DNA from: Planctomycetales bacterium | GTDB taxonomy: Bacteria; Planctomycetota; Planctomycetia; Planctomycetales; Planctomycetaceae | Assembly: GCA_026400835.1 (NCBI GenBank) | Contig: JAPLOA010000098.1 | Coordinates: 1-64,000 of the forward strand | DNA length: 64,000 bases | Reading direction: 5' to 3' | Shown: piece by piece, positions 29,877 to 34,489 of the stretch | Numbering within the stretch: the first letter of the stretch is position 1 | Layout of the letters: each line of letters begins with the position of its first letter | Translations under genes and position numbers: made by a program | Notes under the pieces: generated by a model | Told to the model about the DNA's origin: nothing | The model's database searches: none | The model's input: only the letters and a program-made list of their open reading frames with translations

Positions 29877-30525
29877 GAACCGATGCTCCGGTATGATAAC
29901 GCGAAAAACTCAGTATGATGGGGAGCCTGAATCCCCCAGGCAAAGCTACCTCTGACTTCATCATGCAGGCTGCGGGATTCTGATGAATTGCTCAAAAGCC
30001 GCAAGTTCGAGAAGCAAAAAGCCCCTGAAATCCCTGAGTTCCGGACACCCGGCGAGCGGTTAAGTGTCAGCCCTCCGTGTCTTTTGTCAACGGCCGCAAC
30101 ATCCCATCCCGCGTCACGTCGCGATGGATTGTCGATTCGCTCATCAACAATCATGCAGGGCCAACTCTCTGAAAACGCCGTCAACGGAGGGCTTACGCCG
30201 CGCCGCTCACCGCGACGATGTTTGGGTCTCAAGTTTGCGGGGTTTTAGAGCGGCTGAGGAACGAACTTGCAGTTTATAGGTGCCATTGCTACCGTGCCCG
30301 CTCGCTTGTCCGCCGCACCGGTCTCCGGTTGCGGTGCGCGCCGCGAGCGGTCAGTTCTGGCCGTGGATTTTGGGGGCTCTGTAACGAGAATGTCTCGGGC
30401 AGATTTCGCCTCGTCGAATTGGGGGCTCGGTGCTGAAAGGTTTCAGTGATCGGCGTCGCCTGATTCGCCTTTCAACGTCGGCTGTGACGGGTCTCAGCCT
30501 ATCTAAATTCTTGAGGTTCAATTCG
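29877..30525. other. Divergent intergenic region with short inverted repeat
   Basis: This 649-bp gap lies between aroH (minus) and ppdK (plus). AGCCCTCCGT (30069-30078) and ACGGAGGGCT (30184-30193) are perfect inverted 10-mers about 105 bp apart. They resemble a pair of REP-like halves. A GC-rich, hairpin-prone stretch lies at 30290-30350. No gene is supported. Confidence 0.5.
30513..30517 (+). promoter_or_regulatory. Shine-Dalgarno site fixing the PPDK start
   Basis: GAGGT lies 8 bp before the ATG at 30526. It supports that start over the open extension to 30430, whose N-terminus has no counterpart in the family. Confidence 0.7.
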
Positions 30526-33373: not shown

Positions 33374-33543
33374 GTCCACAGATGAACGCAGATAAACACA
33401 GATAAGTGCAATGCAAGAGACGGACGACATTGCCGCTAGGCTAATTCATTGAGAAACGCTGTTGATTCAGCAGGCGTGGATTTAAGTTTTCATGCCAGCA
33501 AGACTGCGACTCTATCCGTGTTTATCTGCGTTCATCTGTGGAC
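33374..33543. repeat. 170-bp palindromic element, copy 1 of 3
   Basis: It begins GTCCACAGATGAACGCAGAT and ends ATCTGCGTTCATCTGTGGAC. The terminal 31 bp are inverted repeats with a single mismatch. The middle is about 108 bp. Two further copies of exactly the same length follow at 33635 and 33896. No transposase is encoded inside, so it is MITE-like in form. Confidence 0.9.
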
Positions 33544-33634
33544 TAATTGCGTTTACTACTCAGATCATGAGTCACGGCGGAATCGGACTTCGAAAAGATC
33601 ATCGACTGCGTCTTCCGTTGTGACGAGAGTGATT
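33544..33634 (+). pseudogene. Relic of the 5' end of a GxxExxY gene, copy 1
   Basis: These 91 bp align without gaps to the leader of the intact gene at 34097 (TTTACT.CTCAG, then a 16-bp segment of equal length, then GAATC), but the start codon is ACG instead of ATG. A 13-bp deletion follows, and 33592-33621 encodes EKIIDCVFRC against EKIIGCAFRV in the intact protein. The relic is cut off by the next 170-bp element. Confidence 0.75.
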
Positions 33635-33804
33635 GTCCACAGATGAACGCAGATGAACACGGATAAGAGCAAATCAAGAGACCGACGACATGGTCGCGCA
33701 ATGAATTCATTGGGAAACGCTGTTGATTCAGCAGTCGTTGATTTAAGGTTCGGTGCCATCAACACTGCGATTTCATCCGTGTTTATCTGCGTTCATCTGT
33801 GGAC
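33635..33804. repeat. 170-bp palindromic element, copy 2 of 3
   Basis: Same length, termini and interior as copy 1. It starts exactly 261 bp after copy 1. Confidence 0.9.
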
Positions 33805-33895
33805 TAATTGCGTTTACTGCTCGGATGATGAGTCCTGGCAGAATCTGACTTCGAAAAGATCATCGACTGCGTCTTCCGTTGTGACGAGAGTGATT
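33805..33895 (+). pseudogene. Relic of the 5' end of a GxxExxY gene, copy 2
   Basis: It shares the 13-bp deletion of relic 1 and encodes the same EKIIDCVFRC peptide (33853-33882). The position of the start codon reads CTG. The shared deletion shows that units 1 and 2 arose by duplication of one element-plus-relic unit. Confidence 0.75.
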
Positions 33896-34065
33896 GTCCA
33901 CCGATAAACGCAGATGAACACAGATAAGTGCAGGACAAGAGACGGACGACATTGCCGCGAAAGTAATACATTGGAAAACGCAGTTGATTCAGCAGCCGTG
34001 GATTTAAGGTTCCAGACCCGCAACACTGCGGCTCTATCCGTGTTTATCTGCGTTCATCTGTGGAC
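33896..34065. repeat. 170-bp palindromic element, copy 3 of 3
   Basis: It starts exactly 261 bp after copy 2 and ends 31 bp before the start of the intact GxxExxY gene. Its left end carries small changes (GTCCACCGATAAACGCAGAT). Confidence 0.9.
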
Positions 34066-34096
34066 CATTTTTGATTTACTTCTCAGGGTATTCGCT

Positions 34097-34489
34097 ATGT
34101 CAGAATCAGATGTGAACAAGATCACAGAAAAAATCATCGGCTGCGCATTTCGAGTAGCGAATACACTCGGTGCCGGGTTTCTGGAAAAGGTCTACGAGAA
34201 CGCCCTGGCCCATGAACTGCGGAAGAGTGGGGTAGCTGTTTTCCAGCAGCATCCAGTCGCCGTCTTCTACGATGATGTCGTTGTGGGTGAGTACTTCGCA
34301 GATCTGCTGGTCGAAGGATGTGTAATTGTGGAACTCAAGGCCCTTGCAAAGCTGGACGAATCTCATTTTGCACAAAGCCTGAACTATCTGAAGGCGACCG
34401 GCCAGCAATTCGGGCTCCTTCTAAACTTCGGCACTCCTCGTATTGAAGTTAAACGAGTCGTCGCCAGCTCGCAATGGAACGAAAAGTAA
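34097..34489 (+). CDS. GxxExxY family protein
   Basis: A 130-residue protein with the family signature GFLEKVY (residues about 26-32), preceded by ITEKIIGCAFRVANTLG and followed by YFADLLVEGCVIVELKALAK. The last segment, with D...ExK spacing, resembles the core of PD-(D/E)xK nucleases, to which the family has been related. Its function is unknown. The frame is open upstream through element 3 to 33914, but ATG 34097 is where family proteins start. Two 5' relics of the same gene family lie upstream between 170-bp palindromic elements. No toxin, antitoxin or helicase partner is adjacent. Expression presumably starts in or near element 3. Confidence 0.87.
   Translation: MSESDVNKITEKIIGCAFRVANTLGAGFLEKVYENALAHELRKSGVAVFQQHPVAVFYDDVVVGEYFADLLVEGCVIVELKALAKLDESHFAQSLNYLKATGQQFGLLLNFGTPRIEVKRVVASSQWNEK

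Follow-up and report, generated by a model that had tools for sequence, protein, structure and literature searches.

Palindromes that enclose GxxExxY genes suggest a previously undescribed class of mobile element

What are the palindromes that stand in a row before a GxxExxY gene of Planctomycetales bacterium (GCA_026400835.1), and do they belong with that gene? The window, by which we mean the whole 64,000-nucleotide stretch analysed (contig JAPLOA010000098.1, positions 1-64,000, forward strand), contains three gene-less palindromic units of exactly 170 bp on its forward strand, at 33374-33543, 33635-33804 and 33896-34065. They recur with periods of 261 and 261 bp and end in 31-bp inverted arms (33374-33404 and 33513-33543 around a 108-nt loop in the first copy, 33635-33665 and 33774-33804 in the second, 33896-33926 and 34035-34065 in the third). 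The original prediction had described three such elements with this spacing and with near-perfect inverted ends, and this description holds: the arms are complementary at 30/31, 29/31 and 27/31 positions in units 1, 2 and 3, and the units are pairwise 84-87% identical, their 108-nt loops 78-82%. The leader (34066-34096) and the intact gene (34097-34489, forward strand, 130 aa) follow the third unit. Both 91-bp spacers, at 33544-33634 and 33805-33895 on the same strand and near-identical to each other, match the gene at 34097 over its leader and first codons; the alignment scores 64.5, whereas 1000 shuffles scored 37.0 +/- 4.9 and the best shuffle 55.5, which confirms the further claim that they are relics of a GxxExxY leader and first codons whose start codon is lost. 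Though deleted in part, they still encode GAAAAGATCATCGACTGCGTCTTCC. The deletion common to both had been put at 13 bp; it is indeed a single one, but comes to 12 nt in our alignment, with ambiguous placement. Since both spacers carry it, they descend from one truncated copy that was tandemly duplicated.

A weak Rfam match to mir-4504 across units 1 and 2 lies below the gathering score and was taken as chance. Between 33914 and 34096 the GxxExxY frame continues without a stop codon back through the arm, which yields a spurious N-terminus (...SVFICVHLWTIFD), and automatic annotation of the gene could start too early there. A second palindrome family, CGGTGTGGCGTGAGCCCACCGAG, with 20 matches genome-wide, occurs at window positions 30050-30212, at G000:C35:133726-133868 and elsewhere. 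Immediately upstream of the pyruvate phosphate dikinase gene there is a degenerate copy of it, and on C35 one of its copies adjoins a lone window-type arm.

It is possible to read the locus as only the local tandem duplication of a chance inverted repeat beside an unrelated gene. The period of exactly 261 bp would fit, as would the outcome of a search of the whole 7.58-Mb genome, in which complete 170-bp units were absent outside the window and the window terminus recurred only as a few isolated arms. However, like arms, of a type specific to the protein clade, lie beside GxxExxY genes in other phyla. We therefore give this reading next to no credence, and it is refuted as a full account while being true as the local origin of the three window units.

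The wider association was examined at 80 GxxExxY relatives from public genomes, taken without further selection from Planctomycetota, Acidobacteriota, several proteobacterial groups, Cyanobacteria, Bacteroidota, Chloroflexi, Sumerlaeota, Armatimonadota, Spirochaetes, WOR-3, archaea and others. The 10-nt-period motif of the window arms, GATNNACNCNGAT, lies no more than 600 bp from the gene in 69/80 relatives, with 283 of its 363 matches within 300 bp, and four control patterns were found near the gene in 0/80. Loci from 294 Planctomycetota genomes were added, giving 174 distinct GxxExxY genes, and the motif was generalised to a degenerate heptamer, CRCNRAD, repeated with spacers of 1-3 nt, three in a row being counted as an array. 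Such a triple lies within 600 bp of 134/174 genes (290 of the matches within 300 bp) and is missing within that distance from the remaining 40; permuting the heptamer 20 times gave 0-12 loci, except for one purine-rich permutation at 29. A general best-inverted-repeat score gave weak enrichment only, because the arms are degenerate and, where an element bears a gene, too distant from each other for the scan, and the motif search was used instead. As the loci were picked either for their likeness to the window protein or for the best family score, these fractions are not family-wide rates, and the CRCNRAD pattern was generalised on some of the same loci that were later counted.

An independent check is provided by genome-level counts in the 294 Planctomycetota genomes, which are not corrected for host relatedness. 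The long GAT motif is present in 65/294 genomes, 57 of which have a GxxExxY gene (odds ratio 12.8, p 4e-14), and its reversed control was found in 0/294. The GAG motif is likewise associated with the gene (odds ratio 7.4, p 2e-11), its purine-rich control not being empty, and for either motif the odds ratio is 17. In the other eight genomes with the GAT motif no GxxExxY gene was detected; several of these genomes are incomplete. A lack of enrichment near GxxExxY genes had been named as the outcome that would refute a link between palindromes and gene; the opposite was found, in both counts of loci and in the odds ratio for the GAT motif.

The usual layout is an array, the gene and an inverted array, such that an inverted repeat encloses the gene: of the 158 genes with enough flank, 108 have an array upstream (+) and another downstream (-), and 18 have none. 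In loci read directly, the arms read (AA)CCRCNGATGAACRC... or CACAGAGA... and are separated from the gene by about 10 nt. They often follow immediately upon the stop codon of the preceding gene (median of 10 nt between upstream stop codon and array), and no other gene was seen inside the typical element. That palindromes and GxxExxY gene form one unit, as had been proposed, is thus borne out by their association, but not in the form foreseen, since in the usual element the palindrome encloses the gene and the two do not alternate. The window array is a tandem derivative of local origin. The window copy is atypical and, because its gene follows three gene-less units and lacks a right arm, may be a decayed or tandem-rearranged member. 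The orthologous site is uninformative, as pyruvate phosphate dikinase (left) and the FKBP-like gene (right) are not adjacent in the relatives examined. The source genome holds four canonical GxxExxY copies, the window's included, all flanked by palindromic or tandem repeats, each of its own sequence, and one divergent fifth. This fifth homologue (L015/L027, G000:C76:7439) is preceded by CTGAAATCTTTCGGTCA units of 16-17 bp repeated in tandem. In Geothrix, a different palindrome, CATGGGGGGCGCCAGGGCCGCGA, stands in direct orientation on either side of each of two GxxExxY genes (L065, L107), a possible switch of arm sequence.

It is possible that the palindromes are independent repeats moved by another transposase, for example a RAYT, and that GxxExxY genes merely sit or insert there. 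Arms without a gene exist, the eight genomes with a GAT motif and no GxxExxY gene could be explained in this way, and one four-helix-bundle gene (L218) is also found between such arms. However, a third-party mover would not cause arm type to track the GxxExxY clade within one phylum and within single genomes. In a tree of the 174 proteins, a clade of 61 (support 100) has GAG/AAG heptamers with spacers of 1-2 nt, and a group of 92 has mostly GAT heptamers with spacers of 3 nt; arm type changes 44 times on the tree versus 88 with shuffled labels, and 127 of 128 two-sided loci have one arm type on both sides. Within Planctomycetota the clade of 61 comprises 55 xAG, 0 GAT and 6 untyped loci, and the genes outside it 25 GAT-like, 0 xAG and 8 untyped. 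Both kinds of element occur in six genomes (G000, G012, G055, G166, G185, G277), each with its own arms. Host ancestry therefore does not explain arm type. The absence of any other gene from the typical element also speaks against another mover, as do the four-helix-bundle genes themselves: heptamer arrays were found at 1/30 of these control loci, and the idea that such genes share the GxxExxY arms was rejected, 29/30 lacking them. In sum we regard another mover as unlikely, though not negligible. L218, the only one of the 30 between GAG-type heptamer arms, is perhaps a captured passenger.

At the variable heptamer positions, arms of the same element match more than arms of different loci (0.855 vs 0.717; 0.901 vs 0.646), and this agreement within an element is weaker at the spacers. 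This pattern favours recognition of the heptamers over base pairing between the arms as the only constraint. On these comparisons of sequence, arm type coevolves with the GxxExxY protein.

The arms could also be sites (operators, terminators or for mRNA processing) by which a resident nuclease gene that does not move regulates itself. They lie about 10 nt from a gene that is mostly co-oriented with its neighbours (46 '++' vs 6 '--'), and they could fold in the mRNA. However, many arm pairs stand without a gene. In one genome (G041) there are 190 GAT matches and one GxxExxY gene, so that most arrays there must be gene-less, and at another locus (L328) an intact element lies within 11 kb of three gene-less arm pairs. 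Other elements are internally deleted to differing extents (L285, L286, L287, L289), and the gene itself is scattered, occurring in 139/294 genomes. Neither these copies nor this distribution is expected of a resident regulatory site, and the insertion sites described below are not expected either; we thus hold this explanation to be improbable. As far as can be judged from their sequences, the internally deleted and gene-less copies are stages leading to units like those of the window.

One operon gap could be compared across a single genus. In G348 it has no insert and the flanking genes overlap by ATGA, and what is missing is exactly the GAG-type element with gene that fills the gap in G122, G344, G217 and G049. 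G345, G346 and G349 have a GAT-type element there with a gene of another clade, and in G153, G070 and G347 this GAT-type element is decayed. As two element types occur in it, the gap has been filled on at least two occasions and by different types, but we cannot say whether the empty site of G348 was never filled or reflects an exact loss. Comparing empty with filled sites, as had been proposed, thus yielded one exact empty site and no consistent target duplication, the latter in the element flanks read and at this one site only. Together with the array-gene-array layout, the empty site supports the earlier suggestion that the gene is carried by the palindromes. The argG-argH gap of genus g103 (L316-L321) is a hot spot for palindromes: two genomes have a GxxExxY element there and others have unrelated palindromic repeats. 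No clean empty site was found at argG-argH because relatives hold other palindromes.

The sole gene of the element encodes a predicted nuclease. The window protein meets the criterion for GxxExxY membership, scoring above the curated cut-offs of TIGR04256 (E=1.3e-42, 144.8 bits, cut-off 35) and PF13366 (E=1.3e-40, 138.8 bits, cut-off 22). Glu30, Tyr33, Asp69, Glu79, Lys81, Gln93 and Tyr97 are invariant in an alignment of 57 sequences, and Glu, Asp, ExK and QxxxY are kept in 99-100% of the 174 GxxExxY sequences. No noteworthy sequence relative was found in the PDB. A structure model (pLDDT 94.3) has lambda exonuclease, LHK-Exo, MGME1 and Cas4 SSO0001 as nearest PDB folds, at modest scores with only one match at E<=0.001. 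With the catalytic D and ExK and with the fold, the criterion for the PD-(D/E)xK superfamily is met. The original prediction of a possible PD-(D/E)xK nuclease thus agrees with alignment and model, and the protein is predicted to be such an enzyme with its catalytic residues kept, while nuclease activity itself is inferred.

Since the closest folds include Cas4 and phage exonucleases, and since the distribution is patchy, it might be asked if the gene is a defence or addiction module, with arms that label the host's own DNA and a nuclease directed against invading DNA, or against DNA that lacks, or that bears, the heptamers. Yet the element has no partner gene, and the protein was absent from the 50,697 phage records searched and present on only 8 of 72,556 plasmids. 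GxxExxY genes occur in many bacterial phyla and in some archaea. Internally deleted copies and exact insertion would also be left unexplained, and a defence role thus appears very improbable to us. Likeness to PD-(D/E)xK exonucleases and Cas4/RecB-type proteins is confined to the predicted fold and catalytic residues, including the QxxxY motif; the GxxExxY protein stands alone with 130 aa and has palindromes of its own, and its element lacks a helicase, Cas1/2 or a phage partner.

The GxxExxY elements are closer to REP/RAYT systems (TnpA-REP, REPtrons; REPINs), in which an enzyme gene is flanked by inverted palindromes, gene-less copies are dispersed, enzyme and repeat type are paired, and occurrence extends to distant phyla (PMC2817692, PMC3116915, PMC8266576, PMC3733652). 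All of this has a counterpart here, with 108/158 genes flanked in this way and gene-less copies in intergenic gaps. However, the RAYT is a HuH single-tyrosine transposase and the GxxExxY protein a predicted PD-(D/E)xK nuclease, and the REP is a 20-40 bp hairpin tagged GTAG, whereas the arms here are degenerate heptamer arrays with a period of 8-10 nt. No HuH tyrosine transposase was met between the palindromes, where the only gene is PF13366/TIGR04256, and inspection of the loci read, without a systematic scan, revealed no GTAG (or CGTC) tag beside a 20-40 bp hairpin. The element is thus REP/RAYT-like but does not satisfy the criteria that define that family, namely enzyme class and GTAG tag. 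Insertion sequences and MITEs share the single gene between terminal inverted repeats, the internally deleted copies and the one exact empty site, and the criterion of terminal inverted repeats with internally deleted copies is met. The known recombinase chemistries (DDE, HuH, serine, tyrosine) are not represented in the element, whose single gene encodes the PD-(D/E)xK protein; no consistent target duplication was seen in the flanks read or at the empty site, and the arms are iterated heptamers. Intervening sequences with four-helix-bundle proteins (TIGR02436) resemble the element in that a small gene can sit inside a palindrome, but the protein is another and 29/30 such loci lack GxxExxY-type arms. 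The open-access literature gave no description for GxxExxY, PF13366, TIGR04256, PDDEXK with inverted repeats, or the repeat strings.

A more appealing scenario, which we consider quite likely, is that palindromes and GxxExxY gene are one family of small mobile elements whose nuclease recognises its own heptamers. What supports it is comparative: the association, the inverted layout, the coevolution, the one empty site, and the internally deleted and gene-less copies. Neither activity nor movement has been observed, so that of the earlier idea of a protein acting on palindromes as RAYTs act on REPs, the arrangement is supported and the cutting or moving remains inferred. The autonomous form would be about 450-500 bp long and consist of a left arm of two to four CRCNRAD heptamers, spaced by 1-3 nt and often starting with AACC, one gene for a nuclease of 125-130 aa, and a right arm of the same heptamers inverted. 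The nuclease would recognise its own heptamer type, probably in a single-stranded or hairpin form made by the two arms, and cut at the arms, and the element would be excised or copied into intergenic gaps without a clear target duplication; DNA cleavage, the single-strand substrate and transposition by this protein are all inferences. Internal deletion would remove the gene and leave arm-loop-arm palindromes, such as the 170-bp units of the window, that may be mobilisable in trans, which is likewise inferred. In the window, one gene-carrying unit may have been cut to its 5' piece and tandemly duplicated at the 261-bp period, the truncated units now standing before a unit with an intact gene. 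We also lean, with more reserve, towards the broader view that these are mobile palindromes that cross phyla, with a 130-aa PD-(D/E)xK protein as sole mobility enzyme, clade-specific ends and dispersal in trans, a REP/RAYT lifestyle invented independently.

Another nuclease gene was met beside palindromes. At L280 (G347:C1:1276600-1278500), a GxxExxY relic is interrupted by a gene for a GIY-YIG nuclease, with GTCATTCCCGC...GCGGGAATCCA palindromes on either side of that gene, and four of the five closest relatives of its protein (L336, L337, L339, L340) also adjoin such repeats. These palindromes resemble the CGTC-tagged REPs, which are said to lack a dedicated enzyme and have no known mover (PMC3733652), and because of this resemblance the GIY-YIG protein may be a candidate enzyme for them.

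Many short bacterial palindromes have no known mover, and one widespread set (CACAGATGAACACAGAT, CACAGAGACACAGAG, CGCAAAGACGCAAAG and their kin) can now be tied to TIGR04256, a named but uncharacterised family, for each protein of which our work predicts the repeat that it recognises. If true, this would add PD-(D/E)xK chemistry alone to the means by which single-gene elements move, for which we know of no precedent. It would also supply natural recognition-swap experiments and explain the spurious peptides that heptamer arrays create in annotation. The GxxExxY elements suggest a so far undescribed class of mobile palindromes, from which copies without the gene remain, such as those of the window.
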